This document shows positions 1 through 53,169 of a stretch of 64,000 nucleotides of DNA, piece after piece. The notes under the pieces are model-generated. The model saw only the letters and a program-made list of their open reading frames with translations, was not told where the DNA came from and searched no databases. The translations under genes were made by a program, and so were the position numbers. The stretch comes from Phyllobacterium phragmitis. Lineage in GTDB: Bacteria > Pseudomonadota > Alphaproteobacteria > Rhizobiales > Rhizobiaceae. The stretch is from positions 62,001 to 126,000 of the forward strand of contig NZ_PVBR01000010.1 of NCBI RefSeq assembly GCF_002980495.1, read 5' to 3'. The stretch's first letter is position 1. Each line of letters opens with the position of its first letter.

Positions 1-36
1 CTTCTCACCAATCAGTTCGGATATGCTTGCTTTCAT
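1..36 (-). CDS. possible 5' end of a divergent regulator (partial)
   Basis: Reading leftward, an ATG at 36 opens 12 codons that run off the window edge (peptide MKASISELIGEK). An in-frame GTG lies six codons upstream. The peptide resembles the extreme N-terminus of XRE/cupin regulators, which often begin with a motif ending in IGEK, and such PuuR-like regulators commonly face gamma-glutamyl amine operons. Only 36 bases are visible, so this is a context-led guess; a non-coding edge is equally possible. Confidence 0.3.
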   Translation of the reverse strand, partial: MKASISELIGEK

Positions 37-203
37 TTCCTTCGCCTGTTCCACCCGCGGTTTTCTTTTCGTCTTACAGCATATGCATCGAAACGGTCGG
101 AAAAATTCATATTTGACAAATTTGCCGGATATGTATCAAATCATACGAGAATGGAAATTAAAATAGATGCTGTAACAAACAGTACACTCCTCGGGAACAC
201 GAA

Positions 204-968
204 ATGGTTGACGCGATCACGGCTGCTGACGTTGAGAATCCGGTCAGGATTACGAACAGGCACGGCAAAAGCCCGATGCTGCTGCTCTGCGACCATGCGT
301 CGAACCATATCCCCGCCGGCTTTGACACGCTCGGACTGACGCACGAGGAACTTCAACGCCACATCGCGTGGGACCCTGGCGCCATAGGCGTGGCCCGCGA
401 AATGAGCCGCCACCTCGACGCTCCGCTGGTCGAATCCTGCATCTCCCGCCTCATCATCGATTGCAATCGGCCCCTCGATGCGCCTGATCTCGTCCCGGGC
501 TCGAGCGAACTGACCGCCATTCCGGGCAACCAGAGTTTGAGCGCCAATGAGATCGCCGAGAGAGTGGCCCTGTCGCACGCGCCCTATCATGCAGCGGTCG
601 AAGCTCTGATAGCGTCGCGCGTCGCAGCCGGCATCGCGCCGGTTCTCATCGCCATCCATACGTTCACGCGCGTCTATCGCGGCAGGGAACGCCCCTGGCA
701 TATCGGCATCATCCATGACGACGATATCAGGCTCGCCAAACCCGTCATTGCCGGACTGCAGGCGGAAGCAGGCCTTTGCGTCGGGATAAACCAACCCTAT
801 TCGCCGGCTGATCGGGTTTACTATACGCTGGAGCGCCACGCACGGACCAACGGCCTGCAGGCGGTCATGATCGAGATCCGCAACGATCTCGTGACGACTG
901 AGGAAGAAGAAAAACAATGGGGCGAGAGGCTCGCCCGCATCCTGGGAGAGACACAAGGAGAAATTTGA
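204..968 (+). CDS. N-formylglutamate amidohydrolase-family hydrolase
   Basis: A 254-residue cytoplasmic hydrolase of the predicted N-formylglutamate amidohydrolase family (COG3931 type). It has the early motif LLLCDHASNHIP (residues about 26-37), a conserved AIHTFTRVYRG segment mid-protein and a C-terminal MIEIRNDL motif. Family members cleave the amide of N-acylated glutamate. It is the first gene of a same-strand cluster with an amino-alcohol permease, a glutamine-synthetase-like ligase, an aldehyde dehydrogenase and an iron alcohol dehydrogenase. I infer that it hydrolyses a gamma-glutamyl amide intermediate, releasing glutamate, rather than serving histidine breakdown; a different family member lies at about 52-53 kb. 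The ATG at 204 follows a weak ribosome site (GGGAAC). Confidence 0.85.
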   Translation: MVDAITAADVENPVRITNRHGKSPMLLLCDHASNHIPAGFDTLGLTHEELQRHIAWDPGAIGVAREMSRHLDAPLVESCISRLIIDCNRPLDAPDLVPGSSELTAIPGNQSLSANEIAERVALSHAPYHAAVEALIASRVAAGIAPVLIAIHTFTRVYRGRERPWHIGIIHDDDIRLAKPVIAGLQAEAGLCVGINQPYSPADRVYYTLERHARTNGLQAVMIEIRNDLVTTEEEEKQWGERLARILGETQGEI

Positions 969-1034
969 TGCCGCCGTATCAGGCGGACGCGAATGCACTG
1001 AAGTCAACCAAGCAAATTGACAGGGGAAACCAAA

Positions 1035-2561
1035 ATGGCAAGTGCAGACAAGAAAGTCGTCGGCAGCGTCGCTTATCAGACGCGCGACAAGAATTATTTC
1101 GAGAGCCGGCAGCTCATACGCCACGCCAATGTATGGCACCTGTGGGCGCTCGGCGTAGGCGCGGTGATATCGGGCCATTTCTCCGGCTGGAACGGCGGTC
1201 TGCTGCAAGGCGGCTGGGGCGGCATGTTCATCGCCACAATCATCATCGCCATCATGTATCTGGGGCTGACCTTCGCCATCGCGGAAATGTCGCCCGCTTT
1301 GCCGCACACGGGTGCGGCCTATTCGTTTGCCCGCACATCCATGGGCCCATGGGGCGGCTTCGTCACAGGGCTGGCGGAAAATGTCGAATATGTCCTGACG
1401 CCTGCCGTCATCGTCTTCTTCATCGGCTCATACCTTACGGGCATTTTCGGCACCTCGGCGGAATTCCAGCCGGTCTGGTGGATCGCCGCCTATATCGTCT
1501 TCCTCGGGCTCAACATCTGGGGCGTCGCGCTGTCCTTCCGCGTGACGCTTGTTGTGACCCTTCTGGCGCTGCTCTGCCTCGTCGTGTTCTGGTTCTCGGC
1601 GCTCAGTCACATGGATTTCTCACGCTGGGCGCTCAATATCGGCCCCGGCGGCGTCGAACTGCCCGAAGGCAACGGACCGTTCCTCCCAAACGGCATCGGC
1701 GGCGCGCTCGCCGCCCTGCCCTTCGCCGTCTGGCTGTTTCTCGCCATCGAGCAGTTGCCGCTGGCCGCCGAAGAATCGATCGACCCGAAGCGCGACATGC
1801 CGAAGGGCATCATTCTGGGCATACTGACGCTGATCGTCTCGGCCTTCGCCATCCTGACGCTCAACCCGTCGGTGATCGGCATCGGCTCGTTTGCGCTCGG
1901 CTCATCCGGTGAGCCGCTGCTCGATGGCTTCAAGGCGATCTATGGCGAAGGCATCGCCAAGGGGCTGGCGCTGGTCGCAGTGCTGGGCCTCATCGCCTCG
2001 TTCCACACCATCATCTTTGCGCAAGGGCGGCAAATCTTCTCGCTGAGCCGCGCCGGCTATTTCCCGACCTTCCTGTCGGTCACGCACGGCACACGCAAGA
2101 CCCCGCATGTCGCCATGATCGGCGGCGCGCTTCTGGGGCTGGCGGTGATCCTCACCCTCTGGTTCCTGCTCGGCTCGGAAAGAGGCGGCGCGGCCATCGG
2201 CTTCACGCTGCTCAACATGGCGGTGTTCGGCGCGATGCTCAGCTACATCATGCAGGCGGTGTCCTTCATCCTGCTGCGCCGGAACCAGCCGAACATGCAA
2301 CGGCCCTTCCGCAATCCGTTCGGCATACCCGGCGCGGTGCTCACCATCGTCATCGCCTTCGTCACGCTCTATTTCCAGCTCGCTGACCCGGTCTACCGCC
2401 AGGGCATTCTCGGCGTCGCCCTCTGGTTCGCCGTATTCATCGCCTATTTCGCCCTCATCGGTCGTCACAAGCTGATCCTGTCGCCGGAAGAGGAGTTCGC
2501 GCTGGAGCACGGGGCAGCCGCCAAGGCCGTACCGGAGGCTACGGGTCAAGTCGCGTCCTAA
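1035..2561 (+). CDS. eat: APC-family permease, ethanolamine permease-like
   Basis: A 508-residue integral membrane transporter with about 12 hydrophobic segments, of the amino acid-polyamine-organocation superfamily. The N-terminal region (ALGVGAVISGHFSGWNGG, then a Gly-rich segment and IAEMSPALPHTGAAYSF) matches the pattern of ethanolamine permeases in this superfamily. The ATG at 1035 is preferred over the upstream in-frame TTG at 1017 because AGGGG lies about 9 bases before it. It sits 66 bp after the amidohydrolase and upstream of the glutamine-synthetase-like gene. The substrate is therefore probably ethanolamine or another small amine, but this rests on family resemblance and context only. 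Confidence 0.85.
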   Translation: MASADKKVVGSVAYQTRDKNYFESRQLIRHANVWHLWALGVGAVISGHFSGWNGGLLQGGWGGMFIATIIIAIMYLGLTFAIAEMSPALPHTGAAYSFARTSMGPWGGFVTGLAENVEYVLTPAVIVFFIGSYLTGIFGTSAEFQPVWWIAAYIVFLGLNIWGVALSFRVTLVVTLLALLCLVVFWFSALSHMDFSRWALNIGPGGVELPEGNGPFLPNGIGGALAALPFAVWLFLAIEQLPLAAEESIDPKRDMPKGIILGILTLIVSAFAILTLNPSVIGIGSFALGSSGEPLLDGFKAIYGEGIAKGLALVAVLGLIASFHTIIFAQGRQIFSLSRAGYFPTFLSVTHGTRKTPHVAMIGGALLGLAVILTLWFLLGSERGGAAIGFTLLNMAVFGAMLSYIMQAVSFILLRRNQPNMQRPFRNPFGIPGAVLTIVIAFVTLYFQLADPVYRQGILGVALWFAVFIAYFALIGRHKLILSPEEEFALEHGAAAKAVPEATGQVAS

Positions 2562-2569
2562 GCGTAGCG

Positions 2570-2694
2570 CCCTCCTTCCCCCTTGCGGGGAAGGTGCCCG
2601 CGTTAGCGGGCGGATGGGGGTGGTGACGATTGTGTTCAATACTGCACCACCCCCACCCGGCCCTACGGGCCACCCTCCCCGCAAGGGGGAGGGA
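2570..2694. repeat. palindromic intergenic element (family A)
   Basis: Nested inverted repeats fill the gap between the permease and the ligase gene. The outer arms are CCCTCCTTCCCCCTTGCGGG and its near complement at the right end. Inner arms GGGGGTGGTG and CACCACCCCC flank a 19-base centre. It resembles the mosaic palindromic elements scattered through Hyphomicrobiales genomes. Transcribed, it would fold into a long hairpin between two genes of one operon. A related element lies at 7617-7727. Confidence 0.8.
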
Positions 2695-2736
2695 AAGCGC
2701 AGCACCTAAAATCCATCCCATCCGCCGGAGACAGCA

Positions 2737-4104
2737 ATGCCTGGAAATCTCACCTTCAAAGAACTTAAAAAACAAGTCGCGGATGGCGCCATCGACACCG
2801 TTCTCGCCTGCTTCGTCGATATGCAGGGCCGGCTGATCGGCAAGCGATTCCACGGCAGCTTTTTTCTTGAATCGGCCCATGACGAAACCCATGGCTGCGA
2901 TTACCTGCTTGCCAACGATATCGATATGGAGCCGGTGCCCGGCTACACGGCGGCAAGCTGGAAGAAGGGCTATGGCGATTTCGTCATCAAGCCGGATCTC
3001 TCGACCATCCGCCGCATTCCATGGCTCGAAAAGACCGCGCTGGTTCTCTGCGATGTGCTCGACCACCACCACCACGAAGACCTGCCGCATTCGCCGCGCG
3101 GCATCCTCAAGCGGCAATTGGTGCGGCTGAAAGAACGCGGCTACCTCGCCTATTTCGCCTCCGAGCTTGAATTCTACCTCTTCGACGAGACCTATGAGAG
3201 CGCGCGGTCCAAGCACTGGCAGGGAATGGCGACCGCCTCGCCCTATATCCAGGATTACGTGATCCAGATGACCACCAAGGAAGACGCGGTGATGCGCGCC
3301 ATCCGCAACGGGCTTTTCGATGCCGGCATCCCGGTCGAGAACTCCAAGGGCGAATGGGGTCCGGGCCAGGAGGAAATCAACGTCCGCTACTCGGAAGCGC
3401 TGGAGATGGCCGACCGTCATGTGGTGATGAAAAACGGCTGCAAGGAGATCGCCACCCAGATGGGCAAGGCCATCACCTTCATGGCGAAATATGATTATTC
3501 ACTCGCCGGAAGCTCCAGCCACATCCACAATTCATTGTGGAGCGCCGATGGCAAGACATCGCTTTTCCACGATCCAAAGGCCGAACACGGCATGTCGGCG
3601 CTCATGCGCTCATGGGTGGCGGGGCAGTTGAAATATGCTGATGATTTCACCCTGCTGCTGGCGCCCTATATCAACTCCTACAAGCGTTTTCAGGTAGGCA
3701 CCTTTGCGCCCACCAAGATGGTCTGGAGCCGCGACAACCGCACGGCGGGCTTCCGCCTTTGCGGCGAAAACTCGAAGGCCATCCGCATCGAATGCCGCAT
3801 CGGCGGCGCTGATTTGAACCCCTACCTCGCCTTCGCCGGCCTGATCGCGGCAGGATTGGCCGGTATCGATGAGAATCTCGAACTGGCCAAGCCCTTCGAG
3901 GGTGACGCCTATGGCGAGCAGCTTCCTGAAATTCCCAAGACGCTGCGCGAGGCAACCGATATATTCGCCAAATCGGAGATACTGAAATCCGCATTGGGCG
4001 AAGAGGTGATCGAGCATTATGTTCACACAGCCCGCTGGGAACAGCTCGAATACGACCGCCGCGTCACGGATTGGGAACTGCATCGCGGATTTGAGCGGTA
4101 TTAG
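2737..4104 (+). CDS. glutamine synthetase-family gamma-glutamyl-amine ligase
   Basis: 455 residues with a short N-terminal beta-grasp domain (about 5-110) and the C-terminal catalytic domain. Catalytic-domain motifs include the GSSSHIHNSLW segment that binds glutamate/nucleotide and the Arg-rich ICRIGG-like metal/phosphate region (RIECRIGGADLNPYLA). It is nearer to the GlnT/PuuA-type ligases than to housekeeping GlnA, which is usually about 469 residues and ends with an adenylylation loop not seen here. PuuA relatives join glutamate to an amine using ATP. With an ethanolamine-type permease upstream and two dehydrogenases downstream, I infer gamma-glutamylethanolamide synthetase activity. A palindromic repeat separates it from the permease. 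Confidence 0.85.
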   Translation: MPGNLTFKELKKQVADGAIDTVLACFVDMQGRLIGKRFHGSFFLESAHDETHGCDYLLANDIDMEPVPGYTAASWKKGYGDFVIKPDLSTIRRIPWLEKTALVLCDVLDHHHHEDLPHSPRGILKRQLVRLKERGYLAYFASELEFYLFDETYESARSKHWQGMATASPYIQDYVIQMTTKEDAVMRAIRNGLFDAGIPVENSKGEWGPGQEEINVRYSEALEMADRHVVMKNGCKEIATQMGKAITFMAKYDYSLAGSSSHIHNSLWSADGKTSLFHDPKAEHGMSALMRSWVAGQLKYADDFTLLLAPYINSYKRFQVGTFAPTKMVWSRDNRTAGFRLCGENSKAIRIECRIGGADLNPYLAFAGLIAAGLAGIDENLELAKPFEGDAYGEQLPEIPKTLREATDIFAKSEILKSALGEEVIEHYVHTARWEQLEYDRRVTDWELHRGFERY

Positions 4105-4134
4105 AGGAGTGTCTGATTTAATGGAATCGCGAGG

Positions 4135-4295
4135 CACCCCCCTCTCTGCCTTGCCAGGCATCTCCCCCACAAGGGGGGAGATTGGCTGACACGACCATGC
4201 TACCCAATCTTCAACATCTGCGATTGGTGCCAACGCTTATGAAGGCGTAATCTCCCCCCTTGTGGGGGAGATGGCTGGCAAGCCAGAGGGGGGTG
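4135..4295. repeat. palindromic intergenic element (family B)
   Basis: Two inverted arms of about 47 bases surround a 65-base centre. The left arm begins CACCCCCCTCTCTGCC and ends AGGGGGGAGATT; the right arm is its near complement, ending CCAGAGGGGGGTG. Each arm also folds on itself (CTCCCCCACAAGGGGGGAG). It fills the 230-bp gap between the ligase and aldehyde dehydrogenase genes. Copies or relatives occur at 26429-26589 and, reduced, at 33884-33915. Confidence 0.85.
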
Positions 4296-4335
4296 TTCTG
4301 TCCCGCCAGCGGTAAAATGAAAGGGAAAAAACAAA

Positions 4336-5733
4336 ATGACCGAAACGGTGAAGATCGTCTCACCCATCGATGGCTCCATCTATGCGGAACGCCCAGTCGC
4401 CAGCGACAAGTCGCTCGACGCGGCGGTGGAAGCTGCGCGGAAAGCTCAAGGTCCATGGGCTGAAACGCCGATGCTTGAGCGCGGACGTTATTGCCTCGCC
4501 GCCCTCGAAGCGCTCATAGCCATGAATGACGAGATCGTGCCGGAACTTAGCTGGCAGATGGGCCGCCCGGTGCGCTATGGCGGCGAGAAGGGCGGCCTCG
4601 AGGAACGCACGCGCTACATGGTGCAGATCGCCGAAGACGCGTTGAAGCCCGTCATCGCCCCCCTCATATCCAATGACAGGCCCGGCTTCCGCCGCTATGT
4701 CAAGCATGTGCCGCTGGGCATCGTCATGGTCATCGCGCCATGGAACTACCCCTATCTCACTGCCATCAACACCATCATGCCGGCGCTGATTGCCGGCAAT
4801 ACCGTGCTCTTGAAACATGCCGCCCAGACGCTTCTGGCGGGCGAGCGTTTCCAGCAGGCCTTCGACAAGGCTGGCCTGCCCAAGGGTGTCTTCCAGAATA
4901 TCGTGCTCAACCACGGGCAGACGGAAAGACTGCTCGCCTCTGGCCGCATCGATCATGTGAATTTCACCGGCTCGGTCGGCGGCGGCAAGGCGATTGAAAA
5001 GGCCGCAGCAGGCACTTTCATGACGCTGGGGCTGGAGCTTGGCGGCAAGGATCCGGCTTACGTCCTGCCCGACGCCGATCTCGACCACGCGGTCGCCAAT
5101 CTGGTCGATGGCGCGTTCTTCAACACCGGCCAGTGCTGTTGCGGCATCGAGCGCATCTATGTGCATGAGGATGTCTACGACAAATTCGTCGATGGTTTCA
5201 TCGACCTTACCCGGCAATATGTCATCGGCAATCCGCTCGATCAGGCCACCACCATGGGACCGATGGCACAAACCCGCTTCGCCGATCTGATCCGCGAGCA
5301 GAAGGCGGAAGCGCAGCACTTGGGCGCCAAGGCGCATATCGACATGAGATTGGCCGAGGACAGGCCGGGCTCGCCCTATCTCGCGCCGGACGTGCTGACC
5401 AATGTCGATCACCAGATGAGCGTCATGCGCGAGGAAAGCTTCGGCCCCATCGTCGGCATCATGAAAGTGCGGGGTGACGAGGAAGCGCTGGCGCTGATGA
5501 ACGACAGCCCCTACGGCCTCACCGCCTCGCTATGGACCGCCGACACCGACCACGCGGCGCTGCTCGGCGACCGGATCGAGACCGGCACGGTGTTCATGAA
5601 CCGCTGCGACTATCTCGACCCCGCATTGGTCTGGACCGGCGTCAAGGACACCGGCAAGGGCGCCGCCCTCTCCGCCATCGGCTTCGCCAACCTCACCCGC
5701 CCCAAATCCTATCATTTGCGCGAGACGATCTGA
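4336..5733 (+). CDS. NAD(P)-dependent aldehyde dehydrogenase
   Basis: A 465-residue soluble aldehyde dehydrogenase of usual family length. It shows the cofactor-binding APWNYPY motif, the FTGSVGGGK turn, the catalytic Glu region LELGGKDPAYV, and the nucleophile region GQCCCGIERIYVHEDVY with Cys at about residues 267-269. The C-terminal SFGPIVGI and PYGLTASLWTAD segments are also typical. It follows the ligase across a palindromic element and precedes an iron alcohol dehydrogenase by 26 bp. In the inferred route it would oxidise a gamma-glutamylated aldehyde, made from gamma-glutamylethanolamide, to gamma-glutamylglycine. The substrate is inferred, not seen; the enzyme class is clear. Confidence 0.9.
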   Translation: MTETVKIVSPIDGSIYAERPVASDKSLDAAVEAARKAQGPWAETPMLERGRYCLAALEALIAMNDEIVPELSWQMGRPVRYGGEKGGLEERTRYMVQIAEDALKPVIAPLISNDRPGFRRYVKHVPLGIVMVIAPWNYPYLTAINTIMPALIAGNTVLLKHAAQTLLAGERFQQAFDKAGLPKGVFQNIVLNHGQTERLLASGRIDHVNFTGSVGGGKAIEKAAAGTFMTLGLELGGKDPAYVLPDADLDHAVANLVDGAFFNTGQCCCGIERIYVHEDVYDKFVDGFIDLTRQYVIGNPLDQATTMGPMAQTRFADLIREQKAEAQHLGAKAHIDMRLAEDRPGSPYLAPDVLTNVDHQMSVMREESFGPIVGIMKVRGDEEALALMNDSPYGLTASLWTADTDHAALLGDRIETGTVFMNRCDYLDPALVWTGVKDTGKGAALSAIGFANLTRPKSYHLRETI

Positions 5734-5759
5734 AAGCCAACCGCCTGAAAGACAAGTGC

Positions 5760-6932
5760 ATGACCAAATTCTTCTCCAAATGGAACTACCCCACAACAGT
5801 GCTTTTCGGCGAGGGGCGCATCGGGGAACTGCCCGATGTCCTCGCCAGTGCGGGCATCGCCAATCCTCTGTTCGTCACCGACCCCGGCCTCGCAAGGCTG
5901 CCGGTCGTCGCGAGCACACTGAAGATTCTCGACGATTCCAGCGTATCCTACGGTGTCTTTTCCGAGGTTAAGCCCAATCCGGTGGAATCCAATCTCAACG
6001 CCGGCGTGAATATCTTCCGGGACGGCGGACACGACGGCGTGATCGCCTTTGGCGGCGGTTCGGCATTGGACCTGGGCAAGCTCGTCGCCTTCATGGCCGG
6101 TCAAAGCCGCCCGGTCTGGGATTTCGAGGATGTCGATGACTGGTGGACGCGCGCCGACGCCAGCGCCATCGCGCCTGTTATCGCCGTGCCGACCACCGCG
6201 GGCACCGGATCGGAAGTCGGCCGTGCGGCGGTCATCACCAACGAGGCGACCCATACGAAGAAGGTCATCTTCCATCCGAAGATGCTGCCGGTAACCGTCA
6301 TCGCCGACCCCGAACTCTCCATGGGAATGCCGCCTTTCGTCACGGCTGGAACCGGCATGGATGCATTCGCCCATTGCCTGGAAGCCTATTGCGCGCCGGG
6401 CTACCATCCGATGGCCGACGGTATCGCCGTCGAAGGCATGCGCCTCGTCTTCGAAAACCTGCCCAAGGCCTATGCGGACGGCAAGGATCTGACGGCGCGC
6501 GCCAATATGATGAGCGCCGCCGCCATGGGCGCCACCGCTTTCCAGAAGGGGCTCGGCGCGATCCATTCGCTGTCGCATCCCATCGGCGCTCTCTACGACA
6601 CGCATCACGGCATGACCAATGCGGTGTTCATGCCCTATGTGCTGGCCTTCAACCGCGACGTCGTCGAGGAACGCATTATCCGCCTGTCGCGCTATCTCGG
6701 CATCAAGGGCGGCTTCAACGGCTTTGCCAAGGCCGTCCTGAAACTACGCAAGCAGCTGAAGGTGCCGCACAAGCTGCCGGGGCTGATCAAGGGCCTGGAG
6801 ATGGACGACAAGCGGAAGGCGCTGATCGCCGACATGGCGGTGGTCGACCCAACCGCCGGGGGCAATCCGGTGCAACTGACGAAGAAGAACGTCCTGGAAC
6901 TGCTGAACGCTTCCATCGAGGGGAAGCTCTGA
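5760..6932 (+). CDS. iron-containing alcohol dehydrogenase
   Basis: A 390-residue group III alcohol dehydrogenase. The nucleotide-binding GGGSALDLGK (GGGS signature) is near residue 100, followed by PTTAGTGSEVGRAAVI. The metal ligands sit in DAFAHCLEAYCAPGYHPMADG and in the Gly/His-rich SLSHPIGALYDTHHGMTNAVF segment. The ATG at 5760 gives the normal N-terminus, although the frame stays open upstream into the aldehyde dehydrogenase gene. It is the last gene of the operon. An alcohol dehydrogenase in a gamma-glutamyl pathway suggests the imported amine carries a hydroxyl group, as ethanolamine does; that is an inference from gene content. Confidence 0.9.
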   Translation: MTKFFSKWNYPTTVLFGEGRIGELPDVLASAGIANPLFVTDPGLARLPVVASTLKILDDSSVSYGVFSEVKPNPVESNLNAGVNIFRDGGHDGVIAFGGGSALDLGKLVAFMAGQSRPVWDFEDVDDWWTRADASAIAPVIAVPTTAGTGSEVGRAAVITNEATHTKKVIFHPKMLPVTVIADPELSMGMPPFVTAGTGMDAFAHCLEAYCAPGYHPMADGIAVEGMRLVFENLPKAYADGKDLTARANMMSAAAMGATAFQKGLGAIHSLSHPIGALYDTHHGMTNAVFMPYVLAFNRDVVEERIIRLSRYLGIKGGFNGFAKAVLKLRKQLKVPHKLPGLIKGLEMDDKRKALIADMAVVDPTAGGNPVQLTKKNVLELLNASIEGKL

Positions 6933-7734: not shown

Positions 7735-8868
7735 TTAGATGACGTAGGATCGGAGCGGCTCGAAGCCGTTGAATGCGACCGAGGCGTAGGTGGTGGTGTA
7801 GGCGCCTGTACCCTCGATCAAAAGCTCGTCGCCGATGGTAAGCGATACCGGCAGCGGATAGGGCGTCTTTTCATACATCACATCGGCGGAATCGCAGGTC
7901 GGTCCGGCGAGGATGCACGGCTCGGTGCGATCGCCGTCGCGCGGCGTGACGATCTGGTAGCGGATCGCCTCGTCCATCGTTTCGGCCAGACCGCCGAACT
8001 TGCCGATGTCGAGATAGACCCAACGGACATTGTCGTTATCCGCCTTCTTTGAAACCAAGACCACCTCGGTTTTGATCACGCCGGCATTGCCGACCATGCC
8101 GCGGCCCGGCTCGACGATCGTCTCGGGGATGCGATTGCCGAAATGCTTGCGCAGCGCATCGAAGATAGCGCGTCCATAGGCCTGCGCAGTCGGCACGTCG
8201 CGCAGATAGCGCGTCGGGAAACCGCCGCCCATATTGACCATCTTGAGCGTGATGCCTTCCTCGGCAAGCGCCGCGAAGACGCCCCTGGCATCACCCAGCG
8301 CGCGATCCCATGCGGAAAGATCTGTCTGCTGCGAACCGACATGGAACGACACGCCATGGGCGTTGAGACCAAGCGACTTGGCGCGGCGCAGCACATCGAC
8401 GGCCATGGCAGGCACGCAGCCGAACTTGCGCGACAGCGGCCATTCCGCACCCTCGCCATCGGTCAAAACGCGGCAGAAGACGCGAGCGCCGGGCGCTGCA
8501 CGGGCGACCTTCTCGACTTCCTCGACGCTATCGACGGCGAAGAGACGGATGCCGAGCTCGAAGGCGCGCGCGATGTCGCGTTCCTTCTTGATGGTATTGC
8601 CGTAGGAGATGCGCTCCGCGGGTGCGCCGGCATCGAGCGCCATTTCGATCTCGGTGACCGAAGCGGTGTCGAAGGACGAGCCGAGCGAAGCCAGGAGGCG
8701 CAGGATTTCCGGCGCAGGGTTGGCCTTCACCGCGTAGAAGATGCGCGAGTCCGGCAGAGCCTTCTCGAAGCCGATATAATTTTCGCGCACGACATCGAGG
8801 TCGACCACGAGGCAGGGACCGTTCAGACGTCGGGTGTTGAGGAAATCTATGATGCGCTGCGTTGCCAT
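7735..8868 (-). CDS. speF: ornithine/lysine decarboxylase, fold III PLP type
   Basis: A 377-residue decarboxylase of the alanine-racemase-fold (eukaryotic-like) group that makes putrescine from ornithine. The PLP lysine is in FYAVKANPAPE (Lys48). Other family marks are the HVGSQ motif, GGGFPTRY, the phosphate-binding EPGRGMVGNAG, and GPTCDSADVMYE, which carries the catalytic cysteine. The ATG at 8868 has a strong ribosome site (CAGGAGATT, 5-6 bases away). The frame is open further upstream but that extension lies in a structured leader. The length fits ornithine decarboxylase; lysine/ornithine dual use is possible in this family. Its product feeds the homospermidine synthase encoded at 28.5 kb. 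Confidence 0.92.
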   Translation of the reverse strand: MATQRIIDFLNTRRLNGPCLVVDLDVVRENYIGFEKALPDSRIFYAVKANPAPEILRLLASLGSSFDTASVTEIEMALDAGAPAERISYGNTIKKERDIARAFELGIRLFAVDSVEEVEKVARAAPGARVFCRVLTDGEGAEWPLSRKFGCVPAMAVDVLRRAKSLGLNAHGVSFHVGSQQTDLSAWDRALGDARGVFAALAEEGITLKMVNMGGGFPTRYLRDVPTAQAYGRAIFDALRKHFGNRIPETIVEPGRGMVGNAGVIKTEVVLVSKKADNDNVRWVYLDIGKFGGLAETMDEAIRYQIVTPRDGDRTEPCILAGPTCDSADVMYEKTPYPLPVSLTIGDELLIEGTGAYTTTYASVAFNGFEPLRSYVI

Positions 8869-9130
8869 AATAATCTCCTGTTCCAGCGGCCGGAGGCCGC
8901 TTTCGCAAAGGCTGCGGCTTGCCGGCTGCCCGCCGGTTTGCTGCCGCAAAGGGACAAAGTGCATAAAGCCATCCACCGCGTAGCCAGCCTTTGGAGGTGC
9001 TGGAAACATGCGAAGGTTTCATGCGGCGATGGAACAACGCTAAAGCGCGCGTTATTCCGCTTTGTCTGCCTTGGCTTGGAATTGGGAGAACCGCATCCGC
9101 ACTGCCGGCAATGAAGGTGTGCCTCTTCAG
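8869..9130 (-). promoter_or_regulatory. structured 5' leader of the decarboxylase gene (speF-leader candidate)
   Basis: The 616-bp gap between the decarboxylase and the divergent LysR gene holds no convincing gene. On the decarboxylase strand it folds into consecutive stems. 9031-9058 has a 10-bp stem (GGAATAACGC with GCGTTGTTCC, one U:G pair). 8913-8948 has a two-part stem (TTGCGGC/GCCGCA outside, CCGGC/GCCGG inside). 8885-8901 has AGCGGCC/GGCCGCT, ending 16 bases before the start codon and next to the ribosome site. Alphaproteobacteria are known to carry a conserved speF leader RNA at this place. I could not align it to the covariance model. Confidence 0.5.
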
Positions 9131-9331
9131 TAATTTCGGTTTTTGGACAACCGAAAGACACCAGAAAGGCCCGCACCGTCGTTGCTTCAAGATGTCCTCG
9201 GATCTGGCGGTTGGCCGACAGACCGACTGGAGGGGTTAGTTCCAGGTACCTTACCGTTTACCCTCACCATTCGAGGGTCGGCGGACACCCACAGGCACGT
9301 GCGACTTTGGGCAAGCGCGATATAAGGTGAA

Positions 9332-9355
9332 ATTTGTGTCCAATCAATGACAAAT
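9332..9355. promoter_or_regulatory. inverted repeat, candidate LysR operator
   Basis: ATTTGT and ACAAAT are separated by 12 bases, giving a T-N-A dyad of the kind bound by LysR regulators, about 130 bp upstream of the LysR gene. A TATACT box at 9378-9383 lies between it and the gene. Autoregulation is a guess. Confidence 0.35.
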
Positions 9356-9484
9356 CTGCATTACGGCAAAGTTTTTTATATACTGAACAACGGGGCCAAA
9401 TCATCTACAAGAGGTGAACAACGGCAAACTGGCGGCAAGGCCGGAAATGCATAGGTTTCGAACTGGACTGGAGGACCGCTGTTC

Positions 9485-10384
9485 ATGGATACGCTTACCC
9501 GGATGCGCGCCTTCATAGAGGTCGTGGAAGCCGAGGGGTTTTCCGCGGCCGCACGCAAGATCGGCAGGTCCAAGGCGCTTCTCTCCAAATATGTGCGCGA
9601 ACTGGAAGACGAACTGGGCGTATTGCTGCTCAACCGCACGACACGGCAATTCTCCATGACCGAAACAGGACATACATATTATCAGCGTGCCTCGGAGATC
9701 ATCCGCGATATCGACAGCCTGCAGGATTCGGTCAGCGAAACGAGCGGCGACGCCCGCGGACGCATCAAGCTTTCCGCGCCCCGCACTTTCGCCGACGCGC
9801 CGATCGGTCTGTCCCTGATCGATTTTTGCGCGGAGCACCCCGACATCGTCCTCGATATCCGCCTCGACGATCGCTTCGTCGATCTGGTTGAGGAAGGCTT
9901 CGATCTGGCGGTTCGCATCACCCGGCTCCAGGATTCTTCGCTCATCGCCAAGCGCCTGACGCCATTCCACCTCGTGCTATGCGCATCTCCCGAGCTCATC
10001 GCAAAAGTGGGGATGCCCGACAGGCCGGAGGGGCTGCACGACCGCCCCTGCATCATCGACACCAATGCCCAGTCCCGCAACAACTGGCATTTCCGCAATA
10101 CCGACGGATCGCTGCTCACCGTTCCCGTCAGCGGCCCGATCGAGGTCAACAGTCCGCTGACGACCATGGCGGCGGCGGTCAAGGGGTTGGGCTTCTGCAT
10201 TCTTCCGCGCTTCATAGCCGAGCCGGAGCTCGAAAGCGGCAGGCTGATCGCGGGTCTGGACGAGTTCACCATCAAGGATGGCGGCATCTATGCCGTTTAT
10301 CCCCATCGCCGATATCTCCCCGCCAAGGTGCGCGTCCTGGTGGATTATCTCGCAAAATGGTTCAAGGAGCGGAACAATTCATAA
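9485..10384 (+). CDS. LysR-family transcriptional regulator
   Basis: 299 residues with an N-terminal winged helix-turn-helix (MDTLTRMRAFIEVVEAEGFS, then AAARKIGRSKALLSKYVREL) and a periplasmic-binding-protein-like effector domain from about residue 90. A GGAGG ribosome site lies about 10 bases before the ATG. It belongs to the subgroup that begins MDxLxxMRxF, often regulators of oxidoreductases or efflux. It stands divergent from the ornithine decarboxylase leader and about 80 bp upstream of the DUF1007/NicO pair in the same direction. It could control either neighbour; nothing in the sequence decides. Confidence 0.92.
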   Translation: MDTLTRMRAFIEVVEAEGFSAAARKIGRSKALLSKYVRELEDELGVLLLNRTTRQFSMTETGHTYYQRASEIIRDIDSLQDSVSETSGDARGRIKLSAPRTFADAPIGLSLIDFCAEHPDIVLDIRLDDRFVDLVEEGFDLAVRITRLQDSSLIAKRLTPFHLVLCASPELIAKVGMPDRPEGLHDRPCIIDTNAQSRNNWHFRNTDGSLLTVPVSGPIEVNSPLTTMAAAVKGLGFCILPRFIAEPELESGRLIAGLDEFTIKDGGIYAVYPHRRYLPAKVRVLVDYLAKWFKERNNS

Positions 10385-10465
10385 TGATCCGCCTCTTCGG
10401 ATGCCGCCGGTCCCACTTTCGCCAAGTTCACCGATTGAATTGCCAGGAATCACAAGGATTGAATC

Positions 10466-11155
10466 ATGCCTCGAACTGAGGATCGTTTGACGAAGCGCCA
10501 ATTCAGGCAAACGGTTGCGCTGGCGCTTGCCGCCCTGGCGGTGGCTTCATTGCCCTCGCCGGCGCGCGCCCACCCGCATGTCTTCGCCGACGCGCGCCTC
10601 GAAGTCACCGTCGCGCCGGACGGAACCGTCGAGAGGCTCGCCCATGTCTGGCGCTTCGACGACATTTTCTCCAGCACTGTCCTGATGGAATTCGACAAGA
10701 ATGGCGATCTGAAGCTCGATCAGAGCGAGTTGGATACGCTGAGCCAGACGATCAACGATTCCATCGCCGAGTATAAATATTTTCAGACCGTTCTTTCCGA
10801 CGGAAAGGAAGTGCCGATGATAAAGCCGGCGCATCTGATCGCCGATTTTCCTGACAATCAGCTTCTGATCATGTTCGAATCCAAACCGGAGAAGCCCCTG
10901 AAAGTCGACCACAAGGTAAGCTTCGGCGTCTATGACCCAACCTTCTACACCGCGATCGATTATCCCGACGATTCCGACATGCATATATCTGGTGTGCCTA
11001 ACGGCTGCGCGTCCAAGGTCGTGCGGCCCAATCCCGACGAGGCGATCGCCGCCAATCAGACGACCCTGACCGATGCCTTCTTCAACGATCCGACCGGCAA
11101 TGACATGTCGAAAATTTTCGCAACCCGCCTCGAAATCACCTGCGGCCAGAGCTGA
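10466..11155 (+). CDS. DUF1007 periplasmic protein with EF-hand-like loop
   Basis: A 229-residue exported protein. Residues 1-36 are a signal peptide with basic start, hydrophobic core and an ALA-type cleavage near PARA/HPHVF. The mature protein opens with HPHVFADARLEV, the hallmark of DUF1007 proteins. Residues about 75-86 read DKNGDLKLDQSE, which fits a calcium-binding EF-hand loop at positions 1, 3, 5 and 12. Genes of this family routinely precede NicO-type nickel/cobalt transporters, as here with a 21-bp gap. I infer a periplasmic metal-handling partner of the exporter. Biochemical function is not established for the family. Confidence 0.85.
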   Translation: MPRTEDRLTKRQFRQTVALALAALAVASLPSPARAHPHVFADARLEVTVAPDGTVERLAHVWRFDDIFSSTVLMEFDKNGDLKLDQSELDTLSQTINDSIAEYKYFQTVLSDGKEVPMIKPAHLIADFPDNQLLIMFESKPEKPLKVDHKVSFGVYDPTFYTAIDYPDDSDMHISGVPNGCASKVVRPNPDEAIAANQTTLTDAFFNDPTGNDMSKIFATRLEITCGQS

Positions 11156-11176
11156 CCGAAACGACAGGAACAACGC

Positions 11177-12304
11177 ATGAAAAAGCCGGACTTCCTGGCA
11201 AGCCCGATCTTTTTGGCAAGTGTGACGGCCGGTCTGATATTTACCGGACATGCCTGGGCTCAATCCTCGCTCGGCATCGGAGCAAATGAGGTGGCCATGC
11301 AGCCGGTCGGCCCCTTTGCCCATGTCATCCAGTGGATCATGACGGAGCAGCGCAATTTCTATCTGGCCATGACGGGCGCTCTGAAGGCGATGCGCGAGGA
11401 CCCGTGGCAGGCTGCCATCCTGATCGGATTGTCGTTCGTCTACGGCATCTTTCATGCTATCGGACCCGGCCACGGCAAGGCGGTCATCTCTTCCTATATG
11501 ATCGCCAACGAGACGGCGTTGAAGCGTGGCGTTTTCCTGTCCTTCGTTTCCTCCATCCTGCAGGCATTCTCGGCCATCCTGGTCGTCGGCTTGGCCTGGC
11601 TCGTGCTGCGCGGCACCAGCGTCTCGATGAAGGATACGGCGCGTTACATGGAACTCGCGAGCTACGCCCTCGTCATTGTCTTCGGCCTATGGCTGCTCCG
11701 GCGCAAGGTGCCGCTCCTCTTCGCCGCGCGATCACAGGAGGCGAACGCAGCCGAGCCCTCCGGAGGTTTTGCGGTGGAAGCGCTCGCCTTCTCGTCTCCG
11801 GGCGTATGGGAAGGCGCTGTTTCCGAGAAATCGCGCGGGCTGACCAATGGCCGCGGCAAGCGCCTCAATTACAATCGTGCGCTGCCGGCAGGAGCGATGC
11901 CCGATCATGCCTATCAGGGGACGGGTGAAACCTGCGCTGCCTGCGGAAACAACCATGCCCCCGATCCCGCGCAGCTATCGGGAGATTTCAATTGGAAGAC
12001 GGCCTGGTCCGCCATCATGGCGGTCGGCCTTCGCCCATGCTCGGGCGCGCTCATCGTGCTCACCTTCGCTCTGTTGAACGGTCTCGTTCTGGGCGGCATT
12101 CTCTCGGTCTTCGCCATGGCGCTCGGAACCTTCATCACCGTCGCGGCTCTTGCCACAATGGCGGTGATGGCGAAAAATCTCGCGCTGAAATTCGCGGGCA
12201 GCGGCGTCATGTCGGTCAAGCTTCAGGCAATCATCGAAATCGGAGCCGCACTCTTCATCGTTCTCGTCGGCGTGCTGCTTTTCACGGCGGCCCTGACGAT
12301 CTGA
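11177..12304 (+). CDS. NicO/RcnA-type nickel-cobalt transporter
   Basis: A 375-residue inner-membrane transporter with an N-terminal signal-like segment and about six membrane spans. The metal-binding signature FHAIGPGHGKAVISSY is near residue 95 and the second conserved motif GLRPCSGALIVL is near residue 285. Between the two halves lies a cytoplasmic or periplasmic loop containing CAACGNNH (residues about 255-262), a likely extra metal site. Family members export nickel or cobalt. It forms a two-gene unit with the DUF1007 protein and converges with a CDF exporter, so this stretch looks like a divalent-metal efflux locus. Confidence 0.88.
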   Translation: MKKPDFLASPIFLASVTAGLIFTGHAWAQSSLGIGANEVAMQPVGPFAHVIQWIMTEQRNFYLAMTGALKAMREDPWQAAILIGLSFVYGIFHAIGPGHGKAVISSYMIANETALKRGVFLSFVSSILQAFSAILVVGLAWLVLRGTSVSMKDTARYMELASYALVIVFGLWLLRRKVPLLFAARSQEANAAEPSGGFAVEALAFSSPGVWEGAVSEKSRGLTNGRGKRLNYNRALPAGAMPDHAYQGTGETCAACGNNHAPDPAQLSGDFNWKTAWSAIMAVGLRPCSGALIVLTFALLNGLVLGGILSVFAMALGTFITVAALATMAVMAKNLALKFAGSGVMSVKLQAIIEIGAALFIVLVGVLLFTAALTI

Positions 12305-12329
12305 TCGTCGATCTGATTCCGAACGAACG

Positions 12330-12536
12330 TCAATCCTTGCGCTTCTGTTGACGCGCACGCAGCCAGAAGACGCCGAAGAACGCCAACACGAACAGCGTGG
12401 CGAACAAGCCAGCCAACAACGGCGATTCCGCACCGAGCGCCAGCATGATGCGCGGCATCAACAGCCAGATAACGCCGAAACCCAGAAGGATGGCCCCGGC
12501 GGCGATCACTGCATTACGCGTTTTTGGATCTTGCAA
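12330..12536 (-). CDS. small two-span membrane protein
   Basis: 68 residues from a TTG start at 12536 (peptide LQDPKTRNAVIAAGAILLGF onward). Two hydrophobic segments (about residues 9-29 and 40-60) are followed by a basic tail ending RARQQKRKD. An AGGGG ribosome-like site lies about 8 bases upstream, and the start overlaps the end of the CDF gene by 23 bp, suggesting translational coupling. I do not recognise the family. The hydrophobic pattern with positive tail and tight coupling argue for a real gene, though the rare start codon leaves doubt. Confidence 0.6.
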   Translation of the reverse strand: MQDPKTRNAVIAAGAILLGFGVIWLLMPRIMLALGAESPLLAGLFATLFVLAFFGVFWLRARQQKRKD

Positions 12537-13566
12537 TACCGTGCCCCTTTTTGTGCGCCGACTTCTTTGCCTGCGCCGACTTCTTTGCCTGCGAATGACC
12601 ACGAGCCGCGGGCTCCCCGGCCATGTCGCTACCATGATTCCCATGTCCGTCAGCACACGGGCCGGATTCGGTTTCGACTGTGGCATGGGTGATTCCGTGC
12701 GTGGAGGCAAGCCTTTGCTTGACCAGCCGGGTAACCGCCTCCGCATCGCCGCCATCCGCCAGCCGCGCATGCAGCGTGGCAAGATTGCTTTTGCCGTCGA
12801 GCGACCAGACATGCATGTGATGGACGTTCTCGATCCCCGGCACGGTCTTTTCCAGATCGCGTGCGATATCGTCGCGGTCGAGCACGTCGGGTGCGCCCTC
12901 GAGCAATACCTGCCCCGCATCGCGCGTGAGCCGCCATGCGCTCACGAACAGCAGCACCGCCACCAGCCCCGAAAGGATCGGATCGATCGGATACCAGCCG
13001 GTGGCGAGGATGACGAGGGCAGCGGCGATCGCGGCGATGGAACCGAGCAGGTCGCCCATCACATGCAGGATAGCGCCGCGCATATTGAGGTTTTCCCGGT
13101 CGCCGCCATGCAAAATGAAAAAGGCGACCATATTGACCAACAACCCGGCTATGCCGACGGCGAGCATCGGCCCGCCAAGCACCACCGATGGCTGCTCGAA
13201 CCGCTCCCAGGCCTCATAGACGATCCATGCGCCCACGACGAATATGGCAAGGCCGTTCGTATAGGCGACCAGCGTCTTGACCCGGTCGAAACCATAGGTA
13301 TGCCGGTTCGTCGCCGGGCGCTCCGCCAGATGAAAGGCATACCAGGCAAGCCCGAGCGACACGGAATCGGTCAGCATATGTCCCGCATCCGCCAGCAGCG
13401 CCAGCGAACCGGTCCAAAGGCCGCCCATCGCTTCCACCACCATGAAGCCCGCCGTCAGGACGGCAGCGATGAGAACTCGCCGCTTGTCAAGGCCGCTGTA
13501 ATCATGATCATGATCGTGGCGGTGATCATGTCCGTGGTGATCGTGATGGGTATGGTTCTGTGCCAT
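12514..13566 (-). CDS. cation diffusion facilitator metal exporter
   Basis: 350 residues with six predicted membrane spans. The histidine-rich N-terminus (HHDHHGHDHRHDHDHDYSG) and the paired motifs ADAGHMLTDS and HVMGD supply metal ligands, as in zinc/cobalt CDF exporters. The C-terminal cytoplasmic domain contains NVHHMHVWSLDGK, another CDF mark. The protein ends in a Lys/Ala/His-rich tail with two copies of a six-residue unit caused by an 18-bp tandem duplication. It lies 17 bp after an acetyltransferase gene and overlaps the small membrane-protein gene. Metal specificity cannot be read off; zinc is the commonest for this pattern. Confidence 0.92.
   Translation of the reverse strand: MAQNHTHHDHHGHDHRHDHDHDYSGLDKRRVLIAAVLTAGFMVVEAMGGLWTGSLALLADAGHMLTDSVSLGLAWYAFHLAERPATNRHTYGFDRVKTLVAYTNGLAIFVVGAWIVYEAWERFEQPSVVLGGPMLAVGIAGLLVNMVAFFILHGGDRENLNMRGAILHVMGDLLGSIAAIAAALVILATGWYPIDPILSGLVAVLLFVSAWRLTRDAGQVLLEGAPDVLDRDDIARDLEKTVPGIENVHHMHVWSLDGKSNLATLHARLADGGDAEAVTRLVKQRLASTHGITHATVETESGPCADGHGNHGSDMAGEPAARGHSQAKKSAQAKKSAHKKGHGIARSKNA
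12555..12590. repeat. 18-bp perfect tandem duplication
   Basis: The unit GCGCCGACTTCTTTGCCT occurs twice head to tail, in frame within the tail of the CDF exporter, where it encodes a duplicated AKKSAQ-type hexapeptide. Confidence 0.9.
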
Positions 13567-13582
13567 CGGTTCTTGCTTTCAC

Positions 13583-14266
13583 TCAGCTGGAGAGTTCTGC
13601 ACGCAGATCTTCCAGCCGCTTCTTCTGGTTGCCATCGGCATCGAAATTATCCGGTGACAGCCATTTCTCATAGGCCTGTCTGAGCGCAGGCCATTCGCCG
13701 TCGGTGATGGAGAACCACGCCGTATCGCGATTTTTGCCCTTCACCACCAGATGCTGGCGGAAAACGCCTTCGAACTGGAAACCGAAGCGCCGCGCCGCCC
13801 GCTTCGACGGTTCGTTTTCATTGTTGCACTTCCATTCGTAACGGCGATAGCCGAGCTCGTCGAAGACCATGCGGGCAAACAGGAACTGCGCTTCCGTCGC
13901 CGCTGGCCTGCGCGCAATGAGCAGCCCCCAATAGATATTGCCGATCTCGATGGCGCCATGCTCCGGATCGATGCGCATCAGCGCCTGACGCCCGGCGACC
14001 TTGCCCGTCGCCTTGTCGATGACCGCGAAGAACAGCGGATCGGCGCTGGCTTCAGCTTTTTCGAGCCATGGCTGAAACGCTGCCCGGTCGGCAGGCGCAT
14101 CCTCGAAGAGCCAAGTGAAACGTTGAGCCACATCAGGCACGGACGAGGCTTCGAAGAGCCCGTCGCCATGTTTCGCCGCATCGAGCGGTTCGAGCCGAAC
14201 GTAAGTCCCTTCGAGAACCTTGCGTTCGGGCAAGGGTCGCACCGTCCAATGTTTCAGATCCGCCAT
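13583..14266 (-). CDS. RimJ/RimL-type GNAT acetyltransferase
   Basis: 227 residues from the ATG at 14266, which has a good ribosome site (GGAGGAAAG). The fold is a long GNAT domain of the RimJ/RimL group: VRLEPLDAAKHGDGLFEA at the start, GRQALMRIDPEHGAIEIGNIYWG in the core, and SKRAARRFGFQFEGVFRQHLVVKG near the end. Relatives acetylate protein N-termini or small molecules; no substrate is apparent here. It lies 85 bp downstream of modC and 17 bp upstream of the CDF gene on the same strand. Confidence 0.88.
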   Translation of the reverse strand: MADLKHWTVRPLPERKVLEGTYVRLEPLDAAKHGDGLFEASSVPDVAQRFTWLFEDAPADRAAFQPWLEKAEASADPLFFAVIDKATGKVAGRQALMRIDPEHGAIEIGNIYWGLLIARRPAATEAQFLFARMVFDELGYRRYEWKCNNENEPSKRAARRFGFQFEGVFRQHLVVKGKNRDTAWFSITDGEWPALRQAYEKWLSPDNFDADGNQKKRLEDLRAELSS

Positions 14267-52233: not shown

Positions 52234-53169
52234 TCATTCCGCGGCAAGCGGTGGCATGCCGAAATGATAATCCGGCAACGATGACAGATCCGCCAGGAAC
52301 ATATCCAGATCATTGCGAAGCCGGTCGAAGCCGGAATGCTTTTCGAATGTGCGTTCATTGAGATAAAGGCCGCGATTGACCTCGATCTGCAGCGAGTGGA
52401 ATCCTCTCGCCGGTCTGCCGTAATGTTCGGTGATGTAGCCGCCCGCATAGGGTTTGTTATGGGCCACCGCATAACCAATATCCTGCAAAAGCTCGATTGC
52501 CGTGGCGGAAAGGGCATCACTGCACGACATGCCGAAACGATCCCCGACAATGAAATCCGGCCGCCCGATACCATCGCCCACCCGTATGCCCGCCGGCATG
52601 GAATGGCAGTCGATCAGGACGCAATAGCCGAAGCGGCGCTGCGTATCCGCGATCAGCCGACTCAGAACCGCGTGATAGGGCTTGTAGAGTGTTTCGATCC
52701 GCCCGAGCGCTTCGGCGAGCGGCAATTTTCCGGGGTAGATATCCTGGCCTTCGCCAACCAGGCGCGGCACCGTGCCGAGCCCGCCCGCCACCCGCGCCGA
52801 CTGCGCATTGGCATAAGGCGGCAGCGGCTCGTTGAACATGCGGGGGTCGAGTTCATAAGGCTCCCGATTGACATCGAGATAGGCGCGCGGGAAATGCGCC
52901 AGAAGCATCGGCGCCCCGAGCGCCACGGCGCCACCGAAGAGCTCCTCGACATTGCAGTCTTCCGAGCGTCGGATCGCGTGCGCATCCAGCCTGGAGGAGG
53001 CAAGGAAGCGGGGCGGGTAATAACGGCCGCTATGCGGTGAATTGAATACGAAGGGGATGCGTTGATCCGCCGGTGCCCGAATCTCATGCGGCGGAACCAT
53101 AGAAAATTCGCACTCCAAGGTCATCGGCCCACCATTATCGCTCGCCATTACCGCTCGATCGTCATCCAT
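52234..53169 (-). CDS. hutG: N-formylglutamate amidohydrolase
   Basis: About 311 residues from the ATG at 53169; ATGs at 53148 and 53124 are possible. The family motifs are FVFNSPHSGRYYPPRFLASS (metal site), RSEDCNVEELF, AHFPRAYLDVNREPYELDPRM and LIDCHSMPAGIRVG. It hydrolyses N-formylglutamate to formate and glutamate, the last step of one histidine degradation route, though the other hut genes are not here. It differs from the distant relative at 204-968, which has another motif set. It is divergent from cpdR. Confidence 0.88.
   Translation of the reverse strand: MDDDRAVMASDNGGPMTLECEFSMVPPHEIRAPADQRIPFVFNSPHSGRYYPPRFLASSRLDAHAIRRSEDCNVEELFGGAVALGAPMLLAHFPRAYLDVNREPYELDPRMFNEPLPPYANAQSARVAGGLGTVPRLVGEGQDIYPGKLPLAEALGRIETLYKPYHAVLSRLIADTQRRFGYCVLIDCHSMPAGIRVGDGIGRPDFIVGDRFGMSCSDALSATAIELLQDIGYAVAHNKPYAGGYITEHYGRPARGFHSLQIEVNRGLYLNERTFEKHSGFDRLRNDLDMFLADLSSLPDYHFGMPPLAAE

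Follow-up and report, generated by a model that had tools for sequence, protein, structure and literature searches.

A stretch of 64,000 nucleotides from Phyllobacterium phragmitis (the window; positions 62001-126000 of contig C10, NZ_PVBR01000010.1, of genome G000, which is 5.6 Mb and 99% complete) carries at its start a five-gene cluster that, judged from sequence and by analogy with known systems, is very probably a catabolic operon that gamma-glutamylates ethanolamine and ends in glycine. Pfam and NCBIfam profile searches of the open reading frames (ORFs) identified five genes, all on the forward strand between positions 204 and 6932. They encode a PF05013 amidohydrolase (204-968; 254 aa; 163 bits against a cut-off of 28.9), an APC-superfamily permease of the ethanolamine (Eat/TIGR00908) type (1035-2561; 508 aa, read from the ATG at position 1035), a glutamine-synthetase-like ligase (2737-4104; 455 aa; PF00120, 333 bits), an aldehyde dehydrogenase (ALDH; 4336-5733; 465 aa; PF00171, 384 bits), and an iron-containing alcohol dehydrogenase (Fe-ADH; 5760-6932; PF00465, 166 bits; PF25137, 152 bits). 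The Fe-ADH was read from the ATG at 5760, our chosen start, and the ORF from 5532 is an upstream extension. The hydrolase gene is adjoined by a divergent RpiR/MurR-family regulator gene (HTH_6 and SIS domains), of which only the 5′ end lies in the window (1-54, reverse strand, start codon at base 54) and the body before it (L004:9203-10054, equal to C10:61203-62054). Ligase, Fe-ADH, ALDH, and hydrolase thus stand in one operon, and the five same-strand genes and enzyme classes named by a first-pass annotation of this DNA are all present.

Ethanolamine is a component of common membrane lipids, and the cluster would let this soil bacterium feed on it. In the route that we propose, the permease would import ethanolamine and the ligase, a predicted ethanolamine gamma-glutamylase, would use ATP to join it to the gamma-carboxyl of glutamate. 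The Fe-ADH (predicted gamma-glutamylethanolamide dehydrogenase) would then oxidize the hydroxyl of gamma-glutamylethanolamide to an aldehyde, and the ALDH (predicted gamma-glutamyl-aminoacetaldehyde dehydrogenase) would oxidize the aldehyde to gamma-glutamylglycine. Finally, the hydrolase, a predicted gamma-glutamylglycine amidohydrolase (GGAH), would split gamma-glutamylglycine into glycine and glutamate, the latter being recycled. The divergent regulator would control the operon, probably by way of a GTAAC-type site before the first gene.

We infer the substrate and the order of the steps from genomic context and from a gene-for-gene match to a published pathway, which sustains the import, glutamylation, oxidation, and hydrolysis scheme of the first-pass annotation and removes its novelty. 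The complete operon had looked undescribed in this lineage. A 2023 report (PMC10132767) presents the operon RpiR-GGAH-EtoVWX-ETAGA-GAADDH-GETADH of Phaeobacter sp. MED193, five proteins of which rise on phosphorylethanolamine; EtoX binds ethanolamine with a dissociation constant of 7.9 µM, and related genes are stated there to have been demonstrated functional in C. salexigens and A. tumefaciens C58. Judged from the figure legend of that report, the regulator likewise adjoins the hydrolase and the four enzymes follow in the same order, whereas the slot filled there by the three-gene tripartite ATP-independent periplasmic (TRAP) importer EtoVWX is occupied in the window, where EtoVWX is not part of the operon, by a single Eat-type APC permease. 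The use of a formylglutamate-amidohydrolase-like protein for the last step had also been taken as undescribed. The formylglutamate amidohydrolase family (PF05013) was proposed for that step in a 2019 discussion (PMC6529630), and the families PF00120, PF00465, PF00171, and PF05013, which are those found here, were tabulated for C. salexigens in 2022 (PMC9397018). Both claims of novelty fail, because these three sources already describe the operon and propose the family of the last step. The GlnA4-type ligase of Streptomyces belongs to a related case: PMC6529630 gives S. coelicolor a gamma-glutamylethanolamide route with PF05013 proposed at its end. The GlnA4 cluster, according to the figure legend, differs in its short-chain dehydrogenase and glutamine amidotransferase; the legend also lists a regulator gene. 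We conclude that the window cluster is most likely another copy of the published pathway with a different uptake protein. What the present analysis adds is modest: the exchange of importers, a predicted operator, a PhnS-like ABC transporter linked to the cassette, and three plasmids with bhc neighbors.

Conservation was counted in the best 80 of 580 confirmed stretches, from named genomes that are mostly Hyphomicrobiales, with neighbors taken within 6.5 kb of the ligase gene. Among these close relatives, ALDH accompanied the ligase in all 80, Fe-ADH in 79, an RpiR homolog (more than 45% identical) in 74, and the hydrolase in 73. Because hydrolase, ALDH, and Fe-ADH occurred together near the ligase in 72 of the 80, the cluster is no chance set. 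One of the seven loci that lack a nearby hydrolase (L050) is uninformative, as its contig ends 2.2 kb before the ligase. Searches of the six remaining genomes revealed a PF05013 protein elsewhere in five, at 39 to 47% identity. In two of them (G291 and G293) this PF05013 gene has an RpiR-like gene and EtoVW-like TRAP genes as neighbors, which looks like a cassette broken in two, and in a third (G292) the best copy, 47% identical, had no RpiR-like or TRAP neighbors in the 3.7 kb seen. The matches at 39 to 40% may be unrelated paralogs, since the P. phragmitis genome itself has one (L008) and some such genes (L125, L126, and L129) adjoin an RpiR-like gene.

The enzymes are constant, and the importer slot is exchanged among three kinds of transporter. 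Ahead of the ligase in the 80 close relatives stood a TIGR00907-like APC permease (50), a TRAP system (18), or an Eat-type permease (5), with none recognized in 7. In the window, the permease matched the ethanolamine permease family TIGR00908 best by far, with 373 bits compared to 123.7 bits for the next family.

Cassettes of this kind also occur on plasmids. The ligase was found at E<=1e-100 in 34 plasmid records, ten of which were inspected, and hydrolase, ligase, ALDH, and Fe-ADH were together on six: S. meliloti pSymB, a Paracoccus denitrificans plasmid, two from Aminobacter, and one each from P. pantotrophus and Ruegeria conchae. The pSymB copy (CP090106.1, L132) has RpiR, hydrolase, amino acid permease, ligase, ALDH, and Fe-ADH in the order of the window, with an ATP-binding cassette (ABC) transporter alongside; it differs in its TIGR00907-like permease (84% identical to the Phyllobacterium form) and in a hydrolase and a regulator that are 42% and 37% identical to those of the window. 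A Rhizobium sp. CB3171 plasmid carries hydrolase, ligase, and ALDH without an annotated Fe-ADH, the ligases of the Paraburkholderia and Arthrobacter plasmids have different partner genes, and the ligase stretch of a Shinella plasmid is without annotation. The CB3171 cluster (L141:4005-13334) comprises an aminotransferase, a PF05013-type hydrolase, an APC permease, the ligase, ALDH, and a dimethylformamidase-like protein, and this variant perhaps handles another amine substrate.

On three of the ten inspected plasmids the cassette adjoins bhc genes (L133:11022-15342, L134:11048-15347, and L139:11035-14122). The bhc genes encode the beta-hydroxyaspartate cycle, which joins glycine and glyoxylate, and because that cycle consumes both, their adjacency fits glycine as the end product. 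Two of the three plasmids are predicted to be conjugative and one mobilizable. A cassette with bhc genes is possibly a transferable block leading from ethanolamine to central metabolism; among the publications listed by our literature search, none appeared to concern a link between the hydroxyaspartate cycle and ethanolamine.

The same enzymes could instead serve another amino alcohol, such as L-alaninol (from isopropylamine) or 3-aminopropanol, and end in another amino acid. The substrate does not follow from the enzyme classes by themselves, and the terms gamma-glutamyl, alaninol, and isopropylamine co-occur in the literature. IpuC, the isopropylamine/alaninol ligase, has monooxygenase partners. 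We consider a different amino alcohol quite unlikely, as the best family of the permease is that for ethanolamine, three plasmid copies adjoin genes of a glycine/glyoxylate cycle, and the homologous Phaeobacter operon responds to phosphorylethanolamine and encodes a binding protein that binds ethanolamine (PMC10132767).

The hydrolase could also be read, from its Pfam name and a 26-bit match to the HutG model TIGR02017, as the N-formylglutamate deformylase of the histidine pathway, located beside an amine operon without belonging to it. Four PF05013 genes are present in the genome. One of them, on contig C11 between hutH and hutU, is HutG itself, with 395 bits against the TIGR02017 cut-off of 278.75, while the window hydrolase reaches about a tenth of that cut-off and falls outside the family. 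As the hydrolase is moreover kept with the ligase in 73 of the 80 close relatives, deformylation of N-formylglutamate is a very improbable function. Aligned with seven relatives, one of which is the HutG of this genome, the window hydrolase shares 12 invariant columns, including H31, R82, D86, N88, R89, H152, and E224; the enzyme therefore looks catalytically competent. A further PF05013 protein is encoded in the window at 52360-53055 on the reverse strand (C10:114360-115055, L005); its score against the HutG model is 101 bits (cut-off 279).

At 75% identity, the ligase matches PDB chain 11zs_A, which is labeled simply "Glutamine synthetase, catalytic domain". The likeness to C. salexigens extends to this enzyme, which is 54% identical over its length to PDB 5dm3_A, presumably a C. 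salexigens protein. The pathway study in C. salexigens and A. tumefaciens is reportedly that of Vetting et al. 2015. SMb20745 was considered as the S. meliloti ligase and rejected, as its published name is glnII. Alignment with the genome's own GlnA (29% identity; also 29% to a second glutamine-synthetase-like protein, on C23) indicated that E143, E145, E206, E213, H262, R335, R340, R350, E352, and R354 are invariant and that F323 replaces the Glu of the GlnA YEAP motif. The loss of this residue fits an amine ligase, because the YEAP Glu serves the ammonium site. All four NCBIfam ligase families that matched did so below their cut-offs: GlnA at 240 bits (429), type III at 231 (470), the gamma-glutamylputrescine synthetase model GGputSyn NF045547 at 207 (650), and PRK09469 at 114 (845). 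The 207-bit match is what speaks for a PuuA-type gamma-glutamylation of polyamines such as putrescine, a reading that is barely credible, since the score leaves the ligase outside NF045547, the genome has the other synthetase-like ligase on C23, and an Fe-ADH step would fit a hydroxyl and not a second amine. The cobalamin-dependent Eut route was rejected on the absence of EutB: the check for eutBC that had been suggested returned 0 PF06751 matches in the 99% complete genome, with EutC not searched, and among 14 control genomes a match in E. coli only.

Several observations weigh against the ethanolamine operon as proposed. The permease lies just under the TIGR00908 cut-off (373 versus 381.75 bits) and is thus a close relative formally outside the family, and ethanolamine binding was measured for a TRAP system, an importer of another kind. 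Phyllobacterium leguminum (G289, L009), with a permease-ligase-ALDH-ADH cluster at about 8000-14000 that lacks hydrolase and RpiR, had no hydrolase match genome-wide at E<=1e-10. RpiR-like genes adjoin other PF05013 paralogs too (those of L125, L126, and L129, at 32 to 33% identity), and the RpiR-PF05013 pairing alone is therefore weak evidence. A sample of 289 genomes of the class was also searched, with a ligase threshold of E<=1e-100 and with several fetched stretches ending at contig ends; the ligase was present in 38 genomes (own included), EutB in 23, and both in 1, compared to 3.0 expected, such that mutual exclusion was not significant (P=0.16). At the 37 class ligase loci other than our own, the hydrolase, together with RpiR, was in the fetched stretch at only 9, Fe-ADH at 28, ALDH at 24 (three being 27 to 28% matches on the opposite strand), a TRAP binding protein at 13, and an Eat-type permease at 1. 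The full cassette is therefore one subset of ligase contexts, and the ligase family reaches beyond it. The partners seen in Arthrobacter and Paraburkholderia, a C26 hydrolase and a short-chain dehydrogenase, were considered as substitutes for PF05013 and rejected, as the 24 loci inspected, out of 28 in the class that lack PF05013, yielded no C26 hydrolase and only 24 to 29% short-chain dehydrogenase matches in two.

Conserved sequence lies between the regulator and hydrolase genes. A promoter-like block, TTTGACAA...TATCAAAT, occupies positions 112-141 on the forward strand, and in 69 of 72 intergenic regions (the window's counted) between RpiR and hydrolase genes, TTTGACAA is followed after 13 to 19 bases by TATGAAAT, TATCAAAT, or TATCAAAC. 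A sigma-70 promoter scan returned 0 sites, and a terminator scan returned 7 against 6.4 expected. Downstream of the block, at 171-186 on the forward strand, is a predicted operator, TGTAACAAACAGTACA, a presumed site of the RpiR regulator that departs from the family consensus CGTAACATACGATACA at 4 positions. Sites within 3 mismatches of CGTAACATACGATACA were found in 58 of the 72 intergenic regions, the window site being outside those 58, and in 1 of 1440 letter-shuffled copies; this enrichment is no independent test, because the consensus was drawn from the same, mutually related sequences. A 19-base pattern derived from this site matched 46 places in the genome at up to 3 mismatches, the window site being the best (1 mismatch, next 2), and a reversed control pattern matched 504. 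At L048, L061, and L072, three loci that lack the hydrolase, an operator-like site precedes the ligase instead, and in more distant cassettes no such site was clearly visible. The RpiR regulator would probably bind the operator-like site before the first gene.

A PhnS/T/U/V-like ABC transporter is encoded upstream of the window (L004:3650-7576), beyond a 6-phosphogluconate-dehydrogenase-like gene named by eye. It falls under the curated cut-offs, the ATPase scoring 421 bits on PhnT2 (458) and the binding protein 66 bits (310). The transporter was in the fetched stretch of 66 of the 80 close relatives, downstream on the same strand in 56, downstream on the opposite strand in 8, and upstream in 2, and at least 2 of the 14 loci without it are short stretches. 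In S. meliloti it is upstream and divergent. None of the 37 class stretches contained a match to its binding protein, and the transporter is not among the ethanolamine operon genes of Phaeobacter in the published legend (PMC10132767). Control by the same operator was rejected, as in all 67 stretches upstream of the binding protein, own included, even the best site differed at 5 or more of the 16 positions. The linkage of transporter and cassette among the Rhizobiales loci seen is real. It is a speculative and rather unlikely idea that the transporter imports an ethanolamine-bearing compound, for example a phospholipid headgroup like glycerophosphoethanolamine, in a Rhizobiales module with two entries, where free ethanolamine would enter by the exchangeable importer and bound ethanolamine by the ABC system.

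On the other side of the operon, at 7735-8868 on the reverse strand, the window encodes a pyridoxal-phosphate-dependent decarboxylase of the ornithine/diaminopimelate family that adjoins a GNAT gene. In Phyllobacterium, both genes likewise occur close to the cassette, at its opposite flank.

The cluster very probably places a cobalamin-independent route for ethanolamine in a genome that lacks EutB, and its closest cluster relatives are in Phyllobacterium and Mesorhizobium. The comparison would also aid the annotation of genes that are now labeled "N-formylglutamate amidohydrolase" and "glutamine synthetase family".

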